Below, piece after piece: positions 1 to 6,375 of a stretch of 64,000 bases of DNA. The stretch lies in contig NZ_JAEKJZ010000001.1 in assembly GCF_017309185.1 (NCBI RefSeq), forward strand, positions 558,001 to 622,000, read 5' to 3'. Position 1 is the stretch's first letter. The number at the start of each line of letters is the position of its first letter. The notes below the pieces were generated by a model, which was not told where the DNA came from, searched no databases, and saw nothing but the letters and a program-made list of their open reading frames with translations. A program made the position numbers and the translations under genes. This stretch comes from Roseibium aggregatum (GTDB taxonomy: Bacteria; Pseudomonadota; Alphaproteobacteria; Rhizobiales; Stappiaceae).

Positions 1-965
1 TCGACCCCCTTGGCATCGAGGAACATCTGTCTGGAATTGCCTTCGAATTCTTCCTTGATCCACTGGGCTGAAACGGTGTTTTCCTGGTTCTCCGAAAGCT
101 TGAGCTGTTCCGGGCGAATGAAGAGGTAGCACTGATCGCCAGACTTGTAGCTGCGCCCGCCCGCGGCCCGTCCCGTCAGACGGCCGATTTGCGTGTCCAG
201 CGCGACAACGCCTTCCGTCTGGGACGCAACCTTGCCTTCGATGGCGTTGGTTTCGCCGACGAAAGACGCGACGAAGGAGGTCTTGGGCCGGTTATAGATC
301 GTCTCGGGCGGATCGACCTGTTCGATCACGCCTTTGTTCATGACAGCGACCCGGTCCGACATCGTCAGTGCTTCGCCCTGGTCGTGCGTGATGTAAATGA
401 ACGTCAGGCCGACGCGCTGCTGGATGGCGCGCAATTCGGTGCGCATGTGGTGGCGCAGCTTGAGGTCAAGCGCGGACAGAGGCTCGTCAAGGAGCAGAAT
501 GTCGGGTTCCACCGCGAGGGCGCGGGCGATCGCGACGCGTTGGCGCTGTCCGCCGGACAGCTCGTGCACCTTCTTGCCGCCGACGCCTGGCAGCGCGATC
601 ATCTCCAGAAGTTCGTCTGCGCGCTTCAGACGATCCTTCTTGCCGACGCCGCGCACTTCCAGCGGAAACGCGATGTTTTCCGCAACCGACATCAGGGGGA
701 ACAGGGCCAGGTTCTGGAAGATCAACGCGGTCGGCCGCTTGTTCGGGCCGATGCCCTTCATGTCCTGCGTGCCGATCAGGACACGCCCCTCGGTCGGGTC
801 GTTGAAACCGGAGATACAGCGCAGCAGGGTCGTCTTGCCGCAGCCGGAAGGCCCCAGAAACGAAAAGAATTCGCCGCCCTTGATCTTCAGATGCGCGTTA
901 TCGACCGCTGTGTAATGGCCGAAACGGATCGAAACATGATCCAGAACAATATCTTTGGAGGTCAT
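1..965 (-). CDS. ABC transporter ATP-binding protein, polyamine/PotA type (3' end outside window)
   Basis: ATPase of a PotA-like importer that powers uptake of polyamines or related amines at the inner membrane. Reading from the ATG at 965, the protein shows a Walker A motif (GPSGCGKTT, about residues 38-46), a Q-loop, the ABC signature LSGGQ, Walker B (ILLLDEPLSALD) and the H-loop (YITHDQ). The C-terminal TOBE region is entered before the window edge cuts the gene. A GAGAG ribosome site lies five bases before the ATG. It follows the binding-protein gene on the same strand with 101 bases between them, and the permease genes are presumably beyond base 1. Substrate is inferred from the neighbouring PotD-like protein and the aminotransferase; other amine or opine substrates are possible. 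Confidence 0.9.
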   Translation of the reverse strand, partial: MTSKDIVLDHVSIRFGHYTAVDNAHLKIKGGEFFSFLGPSGCGKTTLLRCISGFNDPTEGRVLIGTQDMKGIGPNKRPTALIFQNLALFPLMSVAENIAFPLEVRGVGKKDRLKRADELLEMIALPGVGGKKVHELSGGQRQRVAIARALAVEPDILLLDEPLSALDLKLRHHMRTELRAIQQRVGLTFIYITHDQGEALTMSDRVAVMNKGVIEQVDPPETIYNRPKTSFVASFVGETNAIEGKVASQTEGVVALDTQIGRLTGRAAGGRSYKSGDQCYLFIRPEQLKLSENQENTVSAQWIKEEFEGNSRQMFLDAKGV

Positions 966-1066: not shown

Positions 1067-2206
1067 TCAGGCAGACAGGAACTTGTTGGTGTATTCAGTC
1101 CGTTTTTCCGAATACCACGGCGCTTCCGCCGGCCATGCGTTCAGGTTTGCAAGAGCGTCGCCCGGATAGGCATCGGCGAAGTTCTTTGCATAGATCTCGC
1201 CACCGAAGTCCGACGCGCCGATCACCGGCGAGTTGTAGCCATGCGACTGGATCGCTTCGCCGGCGAGCTTGGCGTCGTAAGCCGCTTCGATGAAGGCATA
1301 GATCTGATCGATGTTCTTGGCGCCTGTCGGCATCGCCATGCCGTCGACCCAGGCCATGGCGCCTTCCTTCGGAGCGCGGTACATCACCGGTTCGCCTGCC
1401 GTCTTGAGCGCGATCGGAGGACCGTCCCAGGTCTGGCCGACGATGACACCTTCGTTCAGAAGACCGTTCTTCTGCGTATCGGCGTCGTTCCAGATCAGCT
1501 TGATGTTCGGTTTCTTGGCGATGGCGATCTCGACAAGCTTGGTCCAGACCTCGTCCATCTTTTCCGGAGTTTCATAGGCGGCCCACATGGAACCGGGGTC
1601 CATCTCTCCGCGGCCTTCGAGACCGAGGCCGAGACCAAGCAGCATGGAGTGCCCGCGGCCCATGGTCTTGCCGGCGTTGGCGTCGTCCCAGACATCATAG
1701 TAGCTCGGGAACTCGCCGTCCGGCGTAAAGGCGTCGGTGCGCCACGCGATGCCTTCCGTGCCCCAGATATGCGGCAGCCAGAAAACGCCCTTGCCGCCGA
1801 AGTTCCAGTGGGTCTCGCCGAGCGCCATGGACGGGTTGACCTTGTCGAGCGGCACCTTGGCCATGTCGAACGGCTGCAACAGGCCGAGGTCGGCCCACAG
1901 AAGGTTCCGGTTCACGGTCGGGGAAACGATGTCGAAGCCTTCGCCGTTGGTGGCTTTCAGCTTGTTGATGATTTCCTCGTTGGAGCCGATGCCGGTGAAG
2001 TTGATCGTGATCCCGGTCTTGTCCTTGAAGCCGTTTACAAAGCTCTCGGGCAGATAGTCGGACCACATCATGATGTTGATTTCGCCCGAAGATGCCAGAA
2101 CGCTGGAACTGACGATTGCGGGCATCGCGAGGCCGGCGCCGGCCGCGGCTGTGCCCTTCAGAAAATCGCGCCGGGTCTTACGCCCGAAAAACTTAGAATC
2201 AACCAT
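1067..2206 (-). CDS. Extracellular polyamine-type solute-binding protein (PotD/PotF family), Tat-exported
   Basis: Periplasmic binding protein of the PotD/PotF family (379 aa) that delivers substrate to the ABC importer encoded just downstream. The start at 2206 is chosen because GAGG lies upstream and a twin-arginine signal follows (KTRRDFLKG, about residues 10-18, then a hydrophobic stretch ending near VLA). The mature part begins with INIMMWSDYLPES, typical of the family, and keeps the two-lobe pattern throughout. An upstream in-frame start at 2332 would add 42 residues before the signal and is rejected. The gene is divergent from the MocR regulator at 2475. Spermidine or putrescine is the best guess for ligand; other cationic amines cannot be excluded. 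Confidence 0.88.
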   Translation of the reverse strand: MVDSKFFGRKTRRDFLKGTAAAGAGLAMPAIVSSSVLASSGEINIMMWSDYLPESFVNGFKDKTGITINFTGIGSNEEIINKLKATNGEGFDIVSPTVNRNLLWADLGLLQPFDMAKVPLDKVNPSMALGETHWNFGGKGVFWLPHIWGTEGIAWRTDAFTPDGEFPSYYDVWDDANAGKTMGRGHSMLLGLGLGLEGRGEMDPGSMWAAYETPEKMDEVWTKLVEIAIAKKPNIKLIWNDADTQKNGLLNEGVIVGQTWDGPPIALKTAGEPVMYRAPKEGAMAWVDGMAMPTGAKNIDQIYAFIEAAYDAKLAGEAIQSHGYNSPVIGASDFGGEIYAKNFADAYPGDALANLNAWPAEAPWYSEKRTEYTNKFLSA

Positions 2207-2341
2207 TAAAATCCTCGCTGTTGGAACCTGAAACCGTTCACCGCTCTGTCGCGGATCGGGCCGGATTTTGTAATCGGGTCTTTGCCACTTTCCGGTCCCG
2301 TCCACAGTCTCCCAAAGACTATTGCGCTGCAAAATGACCCC

Positions 2342-2373
2342 TTAGAGCCAGAAGGCGAAATCTATGGTGCCAG
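2342..2373. promoter_or_regulatory. Candidate MocR operator: two direct repeats, copy 1
   Basis: TTAGAGCCAG at 2342-2351 and GTGCCAG at 2367-2373 form a direct repeat with a 15-base spacer, in the divergent region between the binding protein (start 2206) and the MocR gene (start 2475). The same arrangement, with an identical first half-site and the same spacer length, occurs at 5501-5532. MocR/GntR-aminotransferase regulators characteristically bind spaced direct repeats. Confidence 0.6.
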
Positions 2374-2474
2374 AGAGGGTAAAGGGTCTTGCGGAAAAGG
2401 TCCAGAGCCGGGCAACATCCGCCCGGGCCGTTCAAAGGCCATGCGCCCTATGAGCCCGCAGACGCAGGTAAAAG

Positions 2475-3956
2475 ATGCTGACCACCTATTTCAACGTCCC
2501 ATTCGATCCCGGCCGGCGGCTTCAGCACCAGATACAGGAACGCCTGATCGAGGCGATACTCGCCGGTGTCTGGCCGCTGCATGAACCGCTGCCGTCAACG
2601 CGGGTGTTTTCAAAGCAGATCAATGTATCGCGGAACACGGTCGCCATCGTCTACGAGCGGCTGACGGAAGACGGTTATCTCAAGTCGGTCAGCCGGCGCG
2701 GCTACTTCATCAACGAACGCCACATCCGCGAGCAGCTCAATGTCCGCATAGACGAGCGCGCGAAGGATATCCTGCCGGCGGCCCGCCATCCCTTCAAACT
2801 GGAAAGCCTGCTGACCCACCGCTTCTCCGGGCAGGAGAACATCGAAAAGCCGGCAAACTGGCAGGACTTCGAATATCCCCTCATCTATGGCCAGTTGGCG
2901 CCGGACAAGATTTCGGTCACGCGCTGGCGCGATTGCGTGCGGATGGCGGGAACCGCACAGCATGCGCCGACCTGGATCGGGGACCTGGTGGACCGGGACG
3001 ATCCGATGCTGGTGGATCAGATTATCAGGCGCATGCTGCCGCAGCGGGGGTTCCGGGCCGCTCCGGACGAGATCCTGGTCACCATCGGCGCGCAGAATGC
3101 CCTGTTCATGGCGGCTCAATTGTTCTGCCGTCCGGGGATCCGGGTCGATCTGGAGGAGCCGGGTTATGTGGACGCGCGCAATATCTTTCAAGCGCTTGGC
3201 GCCGAGGTGAAGTCTCACCAGGTGGATTCGAACGGCATGCGGGTCGGTGACGACCTGATCGGAACCAGCCTCGTCTACGTCACGCCGGGCCATCAGTCGC
3301 CGACAAATGTCACCATGTCCATGGAGCGGCGTTTGAGCCTCCTGGCGCATGCGGAGATCCATGATTTTATCGTGCTGGAGGACGATTACGAACACGAACT
3401 CAATTTTGTCGGCGCCCAGAAACCTTCCTTGCGCAGTTTCGACCGGACCGGCCGGGTCCTCCACCTGGCAAGCCTTTCCAAGGCGCTGTTTCCGGGCCTG
3501 CGCCTCGGTTTCATTGCAGCCGACAGGAGAATTGTCCGGGAACTGAGAGCCCTGCGCCGGTTGATGTACAGGCACCCATCCGCGCTCGATCAGCGGGCCA
3601 TGGCGATATTCCTGTCGGAAGGCCACTACGATTCCCATATCCGCAGACAGAGAAATGTGCTGTCCCGGAAGTGGAACAAGGTGTTCAAACTGATCGAGAC
3701 CTACCTGCCGGAGGCGAACGCGACGGTAACCACCGGCGGGTCGGGGGTCTGGATAAGGCTTCCCGAACGCGTCAGGGCCGCGGAACTTCAGGAAAGAGCG
3801 GCGGCCGAAGGCATACTCATCGAGGCCGGAGACGTTCGTTACCTTTCCCCCGACAAGCCGCTCAACCGCATCCGCCTCGGCTTCGGAGCCATCGAGGAAG
3901 AGAAACTGGAGCCGGGCATAAGGCTGCTCGGTCAGGTCCTGGCGAAATGCGCCTGA
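2475..3956 (+). CDS. MocR-type transcriptional regulator (GntR HTH fused to class I aminotransferase fold)
   Basis: PLP-binding transcription factor of the MocR/GabR/PdxR class, 493 aa. The winged HTH occupies about residues 10-82 (LPSTRVFSKQINVSRNTV helix region). The aminotransferase-fold domain runs from about 130 to the end, with LEDDYEHE near 301-308 and the probable PLP lysine K336 in ASLSKALFPGLRLG. AGG lies before the ATG. It is divergent from the binding-protein gene and upstream of an aminotransferase, the usual setting for a regulator that senses an amine or its PLP adduct. Repeats matching at 2342-2373 and 5501-5532 suggest it controls both divergent promoters. Not PdxR by context, as no pdxS/T is present. 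Confidence 0.92.
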   Translation: MLTTYFNVPFDPGRRLQHQIQERLIEAILAGVWPLHEPLPSTRVFSKQINVSRNTVAIVYERLTEDGYLKSVSRRGYFINERHIREQLNVRIDERAKDILPAARHPFKLESLLTHRFSGQENIEKPANWQDFEYPLIYGQLAPDKISVTRWRDCVRMAGTAQHAPTWIGDLVDRDDPMLVDQIIRRMLPQRGFRAAPDEILVTIGAQNALFMAAQLFCRPGIRVDLEEPGYVDARNIFQALGAEVKSHQVDSNGMRVGDDLIGTSLVYVTPGHQSPTNVTMSMERRLSLLAHAEIHDFIVLEDDYEHELNFVGAQKPSLRSFDRTGRVLHLASLSKALFPGLRLGFIAADRRIVRELRALRRLMYRHPSALDQRAMAIFLSEGHYDSHIRRQRNVLSRKWNKVFKLIETYLPEANATVTTGGSGVWIRLPERVRAAELQERAAAEGILIEAGDVRYLSPDKPLNRIRLGFGAIEEEKLEPGIRLLGQVLAKCA

Positions 3957-3961
3957 GGCAA

Positions 3962-3992
3962 AACGTGGCAGGAGTTCACTCCCGCCACGTTA
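3962..3992. terminator. Hairpin between convergent MocR and aminotransferase genes
   Basis: AACGTGGC at 3962-3969 pairs with GCCACGTT at 3985-3992, and the inner GGAGT/ACTCC arms extend the stem across one mismatch. It sits just after the MocR stop codon and before the convergent aminotransferase end at 4124. No real U run follows, so function as a terminator is probable but not certain. Confidence 0.5.
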
Positions 3993-4123
3993 ACCGAGCG
4001 AATTTTGAAAAAACTGCCTTGCCGGAAAGACGGGCGACAGGTCCCGGCTCTCGCTTTCCTGGCCGGGATGTCACCGAATTTAAGGGCAGGCCCCAGGTTT
4101 TGGGTCGAAAAGACCTCCGGGGT

Positions 4124-5440
4124 CTAAAGATCGGCCTGACCCAGCACCTTGCGGAGAATATCGACCATGGCGGACAAGTCGTCTTCGCCGACGGTAAGGG
4201 GAGGGGCGAAGATCAGGGAATCTCCTGTCGCCTTGACGTGAAGGCCGGCGTCGAAGAGACGCCTTTGAACGAGGGAGCCTTTCGCCCCCGGGGCGTCTCC
4301 GGGTGTCAGCTGAATGCCGGACATCATGCCGTAACCGCGCAGATCGTAAACATGAGGCAGGTTGCGCAGGCTGAAGACGCCGTCAAGAAACGCGGAGGAC
4401 AGCGTTGCGGCCCGGTCAAAGAGGCCTTCGGTCTTGTAGATGCCGAGGGTCGCGAGGGCGGCGGCGCAGGCAACCGGGTGGGCCGAATAGGTGTAGCCGT
4501 GCATGAGTTCCGGCCGGTCTGCGGTCACGGAGTCGATCACGGTCTTGTGGACTTCCGTCTTGACCGCCACCGCGCTCATGGGAACGGCGCCATTGGTCAA
4601 GGCCTTGGCCATCGTCATGACATCGGGCGTGACACCGAATTCCTGGGACGCGAAGGCCGATCCGGTGCGGCCGAACCCGGTGATGACTTCGTCGAAAACC
4701 AGCAGAATGCCGTATTTGTCCGCGATCTCCCGCAGGCGCTGCAGGTAGCCGACCGGCGGCACGATCGTGCCGATGGAGCCCGCGATCGGTTCAACGAAGA
4801 CGGCTGCTATCGTTTCGCCGCCGTAGGTCTTGCAGATTTCATCCAGATCGTCCGCGAGGTTGGCGCCGTCTTCCGGCTGTCCCCTCGTGAAGCGCTGGTC
4901 TTCGTTCCAGGTGTGGCGCATATGGACGACGTCGCAGGTGACGCCGGAAAAGTCGCGGCGGTTGTTGACCATGCCCGCCAGCGATGTACCGCCGAGATTG
5001 ACCCCGTGATAGGCCCACGACCGGGAGACGAAGCGCGTCCGCTGCGGCTCGCCCTTGGCCTTGTGATAGGCCATGCAGATCTTGATTGCCGAATCCACGG
5101 CTTCGGAACCGGATGAGCCGAAAAACACCCGGTCGATGCCGTCGGGCAGGATCTCGCTCAGACTTTCCGCCAACTGAAACGAAATCGGCGCCGCCCTTTG
5201 AAAATGCGGCGAATAGTCGAGTTCCAGAAGCTGCTTGTAGACGGCGTCGGCGATTTCCTTGCGTCCGTGACCGGCCGCGCAGGTGAACAGGCCCGAAGAG
5301 CCGTCGAGGATTTCCCTGCCCTCCGGTGTCCAGTAGCGCACACCTTCCGCTTTCTGAAACATCTGCGGTTCCTGATGAAACAGCTTGTTGTTCGTGAAAG
5401 GCAGCCAGTGGTGATCCATGTTGATCGGCATTTGGGTCAT
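4124..5440 (-). CDS. Omega-amino acid:pyruvate aminotransferase (class III, beta-alanine/polyamine type)
   Basis: PLP-dependent class III aminotransferase of 438 aa, cytoplasmic, transferring the terminal amino group of a diamine, beta-alanine or similar omega-amino acid to pyruvate. Visible landmarks: HWLPFTNN at the N terminus (aromatic/substrate pocket of the omega-APT subgroup), SGSEAVDSAIK at about 110-120, the PLP-ring aspartate D250 in LLVFDEVITGFGRTG, and the Schiff-base lysine K279 in MAKALTNGAVPM. It is divergent from a YdfG-like reductase that could remove the semialdehyde product. The promoter region carries the MocR-type direct repeat 61 bases before the start. Beta-alanine:pyruvate is the best family fit; taurine or putrescine use is possible. 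Confidence 0.88.
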   Translation of the reverse strand: MTQMPINMDHHWLPFTNNKLFHQEPQMFQKAEGVRYWTPEGREILDGSSGLFTCAAGHGRKEIADAVYKQLLELDYSPHFQRAAPISFQLAESLSEILPDGIDRVFFGSSGSEAVDSAIKICMAYHKAKGEPQRTRFVSRSWAYHGVNLGGTSLAGMVNNRRDFSGVTCDVVHMRHTWNEDQRFTRGQPEDGANLADDLDEICKTYGGETIAAVFVEPIAGSIGTIVPPVGYLQRLREIADKYGILLVFDEVITGFGRTGSAFASQEFGVTPDVMTMAKALTNGAVPMSAVAVKTEVHKTVIDSVTADRPELMHGYTYSAHPVACAAALATLGIYKTEGLFDRAATLSSAFLDGVFSLRNLPHVYDLRGYGMMSGIQLTPGDAPGAKGSLVQRRLFDAGLHVKATGDSLIFAPPLTVGEDDLSAMVDILRKVLGQADL

Positions 5441-5500
5441 GGCACATCGGTCCTGTCGTGAAAACGCATTCTACACTTAAATCCAGTCGGCAGGTCTGCC

Positions 5501-5532
5501 TTAGAGCCAGCACTCAGATTCGTAGGAGCCAG
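5501..5532. promoter_or_regulatory. Candidate MocR operator: two direct repeats, copy 2
   Basis: TTAGAGCCAG at 5501-5510 is followed after 15 bases by GAGCCAG at 5526-5532. The first half-site is identical to that at 2342-2351 and the spacing is equal. It lies between the aminotransferase start (5440) and the SDR start (5626), so it can serve both. Confidence 0.6.
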
Positions 5533-5625: not shown

Positions 5626-6375
5626 ATGTCGGGCACGATACTGGTCACTGGCGCCACCTCAGGATTCGGACGCGCGACGGCTCGGCATTTCGTTGAGAAC
5701 GGCTGGAAGGTCATCGGTACCGGGCGCCGCGCGGACCGGCTGCGTGCGCTCAGGGACGAGCTCGGAGCGTCGGTTCACATCGCCGCGTTCGATATCGTCG
5801 ACGAAGCGGCCATGCGCGCGGCGCTTGAAGACGTGCCCGCGGAGTTTCAGGAGATTGACGTTCTGGTGAACAACGCCGGCCTGGCGCTTGGAACCGCGTC
5901 GGCCCCTGAAACGAAACTCAGCGACTGGAAGACGATGATCGACACCAATGTGACCGGTCTGGTGTCGATCACCCACCACCTTCTGCCCAAGCTGATCGAG
6001 CGCAAGGGAATGATCGTCAATCTGTCCTCCATCGCGTCGACATGGCCTTACCCGGGCGGCAATGTCTATGGCGGAACAAAAGCCTTCCTGCGCCAGTTCT
6101 CCCTCGGCCTGCGCTCCGATCTGCACGGAAAAGGCGTGCGGGTGACGTCGATAGAGCCGGGCCTGTGCGAGAGCGAGTTCACACTTGTCCGCACGGGTGG
6201 CAACCGGGAAGCCCATGACGCGCTTTACGGCGGCGCCAACCCGATCCAGCCGGAAGACATCGCCAGCACGATCTATTGGATCGCCACCCAGCCGATGCAC
6301 CTCAACATCAATTCGCTTGAAGTCATGCCGGTCAGTCAGTCCTGGGCCGGCTGGCAGATCGCGCGCGAAGGGTAG
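5626..6375 (+). CDS. SDR oxidoreductase, YdfG-like 3-hydroxy acid / malonic semialdehyde dehydrogenase
   Basis: Classical short-chain dehydrogenase of 249 aa. The start at 5626 is preceded by AAGGA; an upstream in-frame ATG at 5563 would prepend a non-conserved tail. The cofactor motif TGATSGFG is at residues 8-15, NNAG at 82-85, catalytic Ser near 134, Tyr148 and Lys152 (YGGTK). GTGRR after strand 2 suggests NADP preference. PYPGGNVYG and IEPGL match the YdfG subgroup, which reduces malonic semialdehyde to 3-hydroxypropionate and oxidises L-allo-threonine or serine. Next to a beta-alanine-type aminotransferase, semialdehyde reduction is a natural role; this pairing is inferred. Confidence 0.85.
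   Translation: MSGTILVTGATSGFGRATARHFVENGWKVIGTGRRADRLRALRDELGASVHIAAFDIVDEAAMRAALEDVPAEFQEIDVLVNNAGLALGTASAPETKLSDWKTMIDTNVTGLVSITHHLLPKLIERKGMIVNLSSIASTWPYPGGNVYGGTKAFLRQFSLGLRSDLHGKGVRVTSIEPGLCESEFTLVRTGGNREAHDALYGGANPIQPEDIASTIYWIATQPMHLNINSLEVMPVSQSWAGWQIAREG

Follow-up and report, generated by a model that had tools for sequence, protein, structure and literature searches.

Paired direct repeats flanking a MocR-type regulator gene of Roseibium aggregatum as predicted operators of the TauR type

Results

The locus and its two repeats

The subject of this study is a direct repeat that occurs twice in a 64,000-nucleotide stretch of Roseibium aggregatum DNA (contig NZ_JAEKJZ010000001.1, positions 558,001 to 622,000; referred to below as the window), on either side of a gene for a MocR-type regulator. 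The genes concerned form two divergent pairs (Table 1): (i) the solute-binding protein (SBP) gene of an ABC importer and mocR, separated by 268 nt, and (ii) aptA, encoding a class III omega-aminotransferase, and a gene for a short-chain dehydrogenase/reductase (SDR), separated by 185 nt. At least one PotC-type permease gene follows the gene of the ATP-binding protein outside the window. The "polyamine" importer of the initial annotation holds as a name at the family level (PotD/PotF), not as a substrate assignment.

Table 1. Genes and predicted regulatory elements of the locus (window coordinates)
Feature	Position	Strand	Remarks
ABC transporter ATP-binding protein, polyamine type	3..965	-	Runs off the window
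Solute-binding protein (SBP), PotD/PotF family	1067..2206	-	TAT signal
TATTGCG block	2320..2326	unassigned (.)	Adjoins operator A; conserved about as well as the boxes within the genus
Operator A (predicted)	2342..2373	+	Direct repeat of TTAGAGCCAG (2342-2351) and CTATGGTGCCAG (2362-2373); CCAG to CCAG 22 bp
MocR-type regulator, TauR-like clade	2475..3956	+	GntR winged helix-turn-helix and fold-type I pyridoxal phosphate (PLP) domain
Class III omega-aminotransferase AptA	4124..5440	-	Model NF052567, 566 bits (cut-off 500)
Possible third half-site TTAAATCCAG	5477..5486	+	Precedes box 1 of operator B by 24 bp; weak
Operator B (predicted)	5501..5532	+	TTAGAGCCAG (5501-5510) and CGTAGGAGCCAG (5521-5532); spacing equal to operator A
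SDR of the YdfG/IsfD kind	5626..6375	+	Model and structure matches

Read directly from the sequence, the repeats are TTAGAGCCAG-N15-GTGCCAG in the importer-MocR gap (operator A) and TTAGAGCCAG-N15-GAGCCAG in the AptA-SDR gap (operator B), and in both the two boxes stand in register 22 bp apart, i.e. about two helical turns. The coordinates, the identical 12-mer and the equal spacing given in the initial annotation were all reproduced, as were its gap sizes of about 270 and 185 bases. Its second half-site, G(T/A)GCCAG, is present, but the box proved to be longer, with the consensus CTATGGnGCCAG over 18 importer-MocR gaps.

The 12-mer CCTTAGAGCCAG (at 2340 and 5499) has no further copy on either strand of the window and is the longest word common to both gaps. 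By chance, approx. 0.003 shared 12-mers would be expected per strand, and the longest common word did not exceed 11 nt in 200 mononucleotide shuffles, which bears out the earlier judgement that such a match is improbable.

Operators A and B were the only matches without mismatches to GAGCCAG-N15-GWGCCAG in the window and, in the genome-wide search that had been proposed (6.12 Mb), to TTAGAGCCAG-N15-GWGCCAG. With up to 3 mismatches, the window yielded 18 matches to the former pattern against 14.2 +/- 3.4 expected (18 or more in 15 of 100 shuffles) and the genome 17 matches to the latter against 31 for the reversed-pattern control, and because of this last comparison the weak genome-wide matches are uninformative. 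The exact operator pair is thus far above chance, and the weaker matches are noise. The next-best match in the genome (C4:315581, 2 mismatches) lies inside an open reading frame and was dropped as chance.

Conservation of the sites in orthologous gaps

We searched 151 related genomes, 62 of which contain MocR homologues at E 1e-80 or better. The close MocR set comprises 18 genomes (that of the window included), with proteins 51-100% identical and the SBP neighbour in common; neither here nor in any other count was relatedness corrected for. The initial annotation had made its reading depend on conservation of the repeats in orthologous intergenic regions, and the site was found in 18 of 18 importer-MocR gaps (11 with 0 mismatches, six with 1 and one, in G143, with 3) and in 14 of 14 AptA-SDR gaps adjacent to mocR (two with 0 mismatches, six with 1, five with 2 and one with 4). 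The site with 4 mismatches, also in G143, is not above background when taken alone, though its distance from aptA is unchanged. The remaining four loci have no such gap beside mocR: L064 is without aptA, and L066, L067 and L068 have aptA elsewhere.

Within these alignments, the boxes of operator A reach 1.89 and 1.85 bits per position, compared with 0.36-0.98 for the flanking sequence (18 gaps), and those of operator B 1.67 and 1.57 against 0.50-0.57 (14 gaps; L065 and L071, with long gaps, are omitted from the displayed alignment of operator B and retained in counts and bit scores). An origin of the pair by chance or by recent duplication, which might be entertained when nothing beyond two copies in one window is considered, is refuted by the conservation of the sites at both loci while the flanks diverge. 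The shuffles described above also speak against such an origin, to which we give practically no credence.

The comparison was extended to a clade of 35 MocR loci, made up of the close set, loci from named records and one plasmid (L142-L148, L150 and L169, being the same records as loci already counted, were omitted from later comparisons). A site with up to 3 mismatches lies upstream of mocR in 34 of these loci; the exception is L163 of Jiella mangrovi, which has no matching importer SBP gene at the locus.

Co-occurrence of the site and MocR

The relaxed pattern KTAGAKCCA-N16-GNGCCAG occurs without mismatches in 18 of the 151 genomes: in 16 of the 18 with a close MocR orthologue versus 2 of the 133 others. 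All 30 sites of those 16 genomes precede mocR or aptA, and the reversed control gave four matches across the whole set. The two matches outside the orthologue-bearing genomes (G079:C12:32138 and G081:C20:33107) consist of one identical hairpin-like sequence; with no MocR orthologue present, they were read as chance and rejected as operators.

In three genomes of the close set, aptA and the SDR gene are located away from mocR (at approx. 265 kb in G030, approx. 135 kb in G016 and on another contig in G015), and the site still lies 61-68 nt before aptA, with 1, 2 and 2 mismatches, respectively. Because these unlinked modules retain the site, the repeat appears to follow membership in the regulon, and they provide what we consider the strongest evidence for a predicted control in trans. 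In G038 (an assembly in 200 contigs) no aptA was found at E 1e-120 and the SDR gene directly follows mocR; operator A is present at the locus, and with as many as 4 mismatches allowed no second site was found, so that operator B seems to go with aptA and not with the SDR gene.

The association also bears on the question of which protein binds the repeats. The genome encodes 11 further matches to the MocR protein at E 0.001, so another MocR paralogue, or a factor of a different kind, might be the true ligand of the sites. We regard this as very improbable, since the site and the MocR orthologue occur together, all 18 orthologous loci have the site beside mocR and its motif is that of TauR-like relatives of MocR.

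A wider pattern, applied to 45 genomes of the genus, revealed nothing new in the R. aggregatum genome (operator A only). Three matches beyond the two operator places (G022:C6, G023:C13 and G033:C5) fall within the level of the reversed control (14 matches) and were not accepted as extra sites. Those of G023:C13 and G033:C5 (L216 and L217) are TAGGTCCAG-N13-TAGGGCCAG-like repeats located approx. 20 bp ahead of another MocR gene (36-38% identical), which has xsc and genes for unidentified proteins of approx. 815 and 520 aa in its neighbourhood.

Kinship with TauR operators and polarity

The initial annotation had argued that MocR proteins bind direct repeats; we found that the repeat is of the operator type of TauR, itself a MocR protein. 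TauR of Rhodobacter capsulatus is reported, in passages of PMC5320631, to bind direct repeats of CTGGACYTAA. Box 1, read on the opposite strand (CTGGCTCTAA), fits this sequence at 8 of 10 positions (counted by hand), and the 22-bp period agrees with a TauR direct-repeat operator of about two helical turns. A tauR-tauA gap of Sinorhizobium meliloti, whose TauR is described as an activator in an excerpt of PMC4254191, likewise contains TTATATCCAG and ATGAGTCCAG exactly 22 bp apart, with the same polarity towards the importer gene. In R. capsulatus and S. meliloti, as here, the MocR regulator is transcribed away from an ABC importer and the boxes of the direct repeat have the form CTGG...TAA; the boxes of the window, however, end in GCCAG, those of TauR in TCCAG.

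CCAG pairs 21-23 bp apart were detected upstream of mocR in 27 of the 35 loci of the clade and in 19 of 42 other MocR loci, against means of 0.66 and 0.60, respectively, and maxima of 4 in 300 shuffles, and like operators precede xsc-linked mocR genes. By these features the repeats of the window are predicted to be operators of the TauR type, here on a new set of genes.

The direction of control is suggested by Celeribacter, in which MocR of the same clade adjoins a different class III aminotransferase and an aldehyde dehydrogenase. The gaps between these two genes contain CCAG pairs at exactly 22 bp in nine of nine loci (L153, L156, L157, L158, L159, L160, L161, L162 and L172; shuffles gave a mean of 0.13 and a maximum of 2); L154, with no aminotransferase match in the locus, was left out. 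The pairs are present in both orientations in five gaps, face only the dehydrogenase in three and only the aminotransferase in one. The five gaps with one operator per direction, together with the S. meliloti case, suggest that the gene activated is the one towards which the CTGG-reading strand is directed. Such a polarity would single out the importer and aptA as the targets in the window. An ethanolamine ammonia-lyase light chain gene is located near the Celeribacter locus L161.

Additional sequence elements of the gaps

A TAGGACCAG-like word, itself weak, stands at the position of the possible third half-site (Table 1) in several orthologues. The TATTGCG block precedes operator A by 16-22 bp and is near-invariant in the genus, and most Celeribacter loci have CCTAGG-like words instead; it may belong to the importer promoter or represent an additional half-site.

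The MocR protein

Assignment to the MocR subfamily is indicated by matches above cut-off to PF00392 and PF00155. Lys336 aligns with the PLP-binding Lys312 of GabR; this residue, Asp303, Tyr305 and Arg343 are kept in 34-35 of 35 proteins of the clade. In terms of the GabR ligand site (roles as given in passages of PMC6917764), the residues kept at this level are Tyr205, Asp279, Tyr281, Lys312 and Arg319. The position of GabR Arg207 was considered as a test of ligand charge and abandoned, as it does not discriminate (Asp in 35 of 35 clade members and in 15 of 16 xsc-linked TauR proteins).

In a tree of 76 MocR sequences, from which L174 (a split gene) was left out, the importer-type proteins form a clade of 34 rows with support of 100/99 and no xsc-linked member. 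Proteins from Klebsiella and Sodalis plasmids are its weakly supported sisters (85/75), and the 16 rows labelled as xsc neighbours lie across a weak branch (64/82); L170, which has a 47% Xsc match and does not carry that label, falls on the same side as the importer-type clade, outside it. The MocR protein of the window is 36% identical to the S. meliloti protein and lies apart from the known TauR proteins in this separate clade. Of the genes of TauR regulons, none of xsc, tauABC and tauXY was found beside the operators; an aminotransferase is present, which might be a Tpa. No Xsc or TauA match of at least 38% was found in loci of the clade, except for a 41% TauA match in L163. By this phylogeny, we take the MocR protein to be a relative of xsc-linked TauR that belongs to a clade of its own and is distinct from TauR.

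TauR2, described in passages of PMC5320631 as a close TauR homologue with a TauR-like motif, controls tauE, oppABCDF, a TRAP transporter, an aldehyde dehydrogenase (COG1012) and a hydrolase (COG596). In contrast, no TRAP, opp, COG1012, COG596 or tauE gene flanks the operators in the window, and the Ruegeria pomeroyi locus L180, taken as TauR2 by its fitting gene content, belongs to another clade.

Enzymes, importer and possible substrates

The SBP is the most constant partner of MocR (matches in 34 of the 35 clade loci, 69-94% identical), whereas the deaminating enzyme varies: AptA, the class III aminotransferase plus aldehyde dehydrogenase of Celeribacter, or an enzyme annotated as tyramine oxidase in Paroceanicella. 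The gene for the last follows the MocR homologue on a plasmid of Paroceanicella profunda (L178), in a stretch that gave no match to AptA.

These features suit the import and deamination of a small primary amine, such as a putrescine-like diamine, by a PotD-type importer and an exchangeable enzyme. The SBP also retains WSDY and AWxD motifs that align with those of PotF and presumably bind polyamine. However, its overall match to PotF is weak, PotD-type binding proteins also take other ligands, and AptA is nearer to beta-alanine:pyruvate transaminases (402 bits to the nearest solved structures) than to polyamine:pyruvate transaminase (276 bits). An amine substrate is, in our opinion, possible and rather doubtful.

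A second candidate is taurine or a close amino sulfonate, converted via sulfoacetaldehyde to isethionate as a source of nitrogen, the locus being an alphaproteobacterial counterpart of the isf cluster. According to passages of PMC6616044, the latter encodes the TauABC importer, the Toa aminotransferase, the IsfD reductase and the IsfE exporter; the aminotransferase and SDR of the window are of matching superfamilies, and the importer is of another type. Besides the TauR-type operator and regulator, the following observations point to taurine. The SDR matches the crystallised sulfoacetaldehyde reductase 6ixj at 276 bits. Relatives of AptA (54-58% identical) occur in six Xsc-holding loci (L077, L078, L079, L081, L082 and L086), and three more (L166, L167 and L181) contain enzymes related to the Celeribacter aminotransferase (70-74%). 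Of the 18 clade loci with both aptA and the SDR gene, four (L071, L155, L163 and L174) have a TauE/SafE-family gene between the two; in L163 the gap there carries two CCAG pairs of 22-bp spacing, one in each orientation.

A further argument comes from a Klebsiella variicola record filed as a plasmid (NZ_CP114358; L191), which encodes, in an isf-like cluster, an importer, a TauR-like MocR protein, an aminotransferase and an SDR. As in the window, the importer-MocR and aminotransferase-SDR pairs are divergent and a related box, ATAGAGCCAG, is present in both gaps. The SDR is homologous to that of the window (54% identity) and approx. 92% identical to 6ixj (by our count of the alignment, 21 of 254 residues differ), from which we infer that this locus would make isethionate. 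It differs in its importer, which is of the amino-acid type, and in the low identity of the aminotransferase (29%) and MocR (41%).

Finally, the MocR orthologue and Xsc are rarely found together in the genus. Among the 45 genomes (Xsc above cut-off in 21, MocR orthologue in 15; G043, with Xsc in two pieces, counted as lacking it), two have both, 13 the MocR orthologue only, 19 Xsc only and 11 neither (Fisher p 0.0018, relatedness uncorrected). This avoidance may reflect alternative taurine routes, or mere relatedness.

Against taurine, R. aggregatum itself and G021 are the two genomes with both genes, and the importer is of the polyamine type instead of TauABC. The SDR scores about as high to 3asu (273 bits), which we take to be E. 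coli YdfG, and higher to 2nwq (323 bits), and its C-terminus is SQSWAGW, unlike RQAWQPF of IsfD. TauE/SafE is a broad family, no TauE-like gene was detected by tblastn at 1e-8 in the other 14 loci, and the window contains no member of the family. We hold taurine to be a possible substrate, though short of a probable one.

The third candidate, beta-alanine or GABA, with 3-hydroxypropionate or 4-hydroxybutyrate as the product of the SDR, is suggested by the above-cut-off match to the AptA model, by the best model for the SDR (3-hydroxy acid dehydrogenase, below cut-off at 318 vs 411 bits) and by OapR of Cupriavidus necator, a MocR protein responding to beta-alanine and acting on oapTD (passages of PMC7057948), where oapT encodes an omega-amino acid:pyruvate aminotransferase (passages of PMC5320631). 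Yet the genome contains a second AptA homologue (C1:2274889) much closer to the beta-alanine:pyruvate transaminase 4b98 (507 bits vs 402 for AptA). AptA homologues at E 1e-120 occur in 43 of the 45 genus genomes, most of which hold one of 45-52% identity, taken to be the counterpart of the C1:2274889 copy. The OapR motifs are described, in passages of PMC5320631, as mixed or inverted repeats, unlike the plain direct repeats of the window. OapR is, as our protein is predicted to be, a regulator of an omega-aminotransferase, and differs in that its motif has an inverted box and its regulon includes the dehydrogenase OapD; no aldehyde dehydrogenase belongs to the gene pairs flanking operators A and B. 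We consider this substrate unlikely.

Discussion

The evidence presented above makes it very probable that the two repeats serve as operators for the product of the mocR gene lying between them, and that this protein would activate the importer and the aminotransferase as TauR does. The mechanism that we infer would run as follows: the PLP domain of MocR would sense an amine or omega-amino acid taken up by the importer, just as taurine is sensed by TauR; the MocR dimer would bind both CCAG half-sites, 22 bp apart, on one face of the helix; and it would activate the promoters faced by the CTGG-reading strand, namely the importer promoter at operator A and the aminotransferase promoter at operator B. 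The aminotransferase would then generate an aldehyde for reduction by the SDR, the amino nitrogen being retained and the alcohol released as waste, as in the isf pathway for taurine nitrogen. mocR and the SDR gene, on the other side of the operators, are probably co-regulated, although with less certainty. Of the single regulon claimed in the initial annotation, the importer and the aminotransferase are supported (by polarity, co-occurrence and the unlinked sites), and the case for MocR itself and the SDR is weaker in view of the polarity and of G038.

Several observations weigh against this interpretation. No sigma-70 consensus pair was found by scan in either gap (sigma-54 promoters were assessed by eye only). 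With their degenerate sites, G038 and G143 escape the relaxed pattern in its exact form, and G079 and G081, two genomes that have no MocR orthologue, are matched by it. Beyond the 151 genomes, operator B (up to 3 mismatches) was present in only one of five AptA loci (L174 of L149, L151, L155, L163 and L174), with 4 mismatches in L151 and L155. No plus-strand CCAG pair was detected in 23 of the 42 other MocR loci. The Klebsiella locus L191 has a degenerate second box, and a common word of 10 nt does not exceed chance by its length alone (an unrelated 10-mer is common to the gaps on the opposite strand). The presence of operator B in one orientation only makes control of the SDR gene uncertain, and the lack of correction for relatedness affects all counts. 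Furthermore, the position of GabR Arg430 is occupied by His or Arg in 33 of 35 proteins of the clade vs Phe or Tyr in 16 of 16 xsc neighbours; because pocket columns differ in this way between the clade and xsc-linked TauR, the ligand of MocR may be a compound other than taurine.

Our search of the open PMC literature (titles and openings of abstracts) found no paper on this locus, and RegPrecise or the supplements of PMC5320631 may list the group. The operators are of the known TauR kind; the orthologous group and the gene set are new. One might speculate, though we find it somewhat unlikely, that a TauR-type MocR lineage of marine Alphaproteobacteria kept its operator and changed its job, coming to control a polyamine-type importer and interchangeable deaminating enzymes (AptA/SDR, aminotransferase/aldehyde dehydrogenase or amine oxidase), and that in many members of the genus it replaces the Xsc taurine route by a nitrogen-only route in which the alcohol is excreted.

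The relocated AptA/SDR module that retains its operator offers a clean case for the study of direct-repeat recognition by MocR dimers and of the joint evolution of regulator, operator and enzymes. The predicted operators link the TauR type to a new set of genes and give this MocR clade of a marine genus, so far uncharacterised, a regulon that can be tested.

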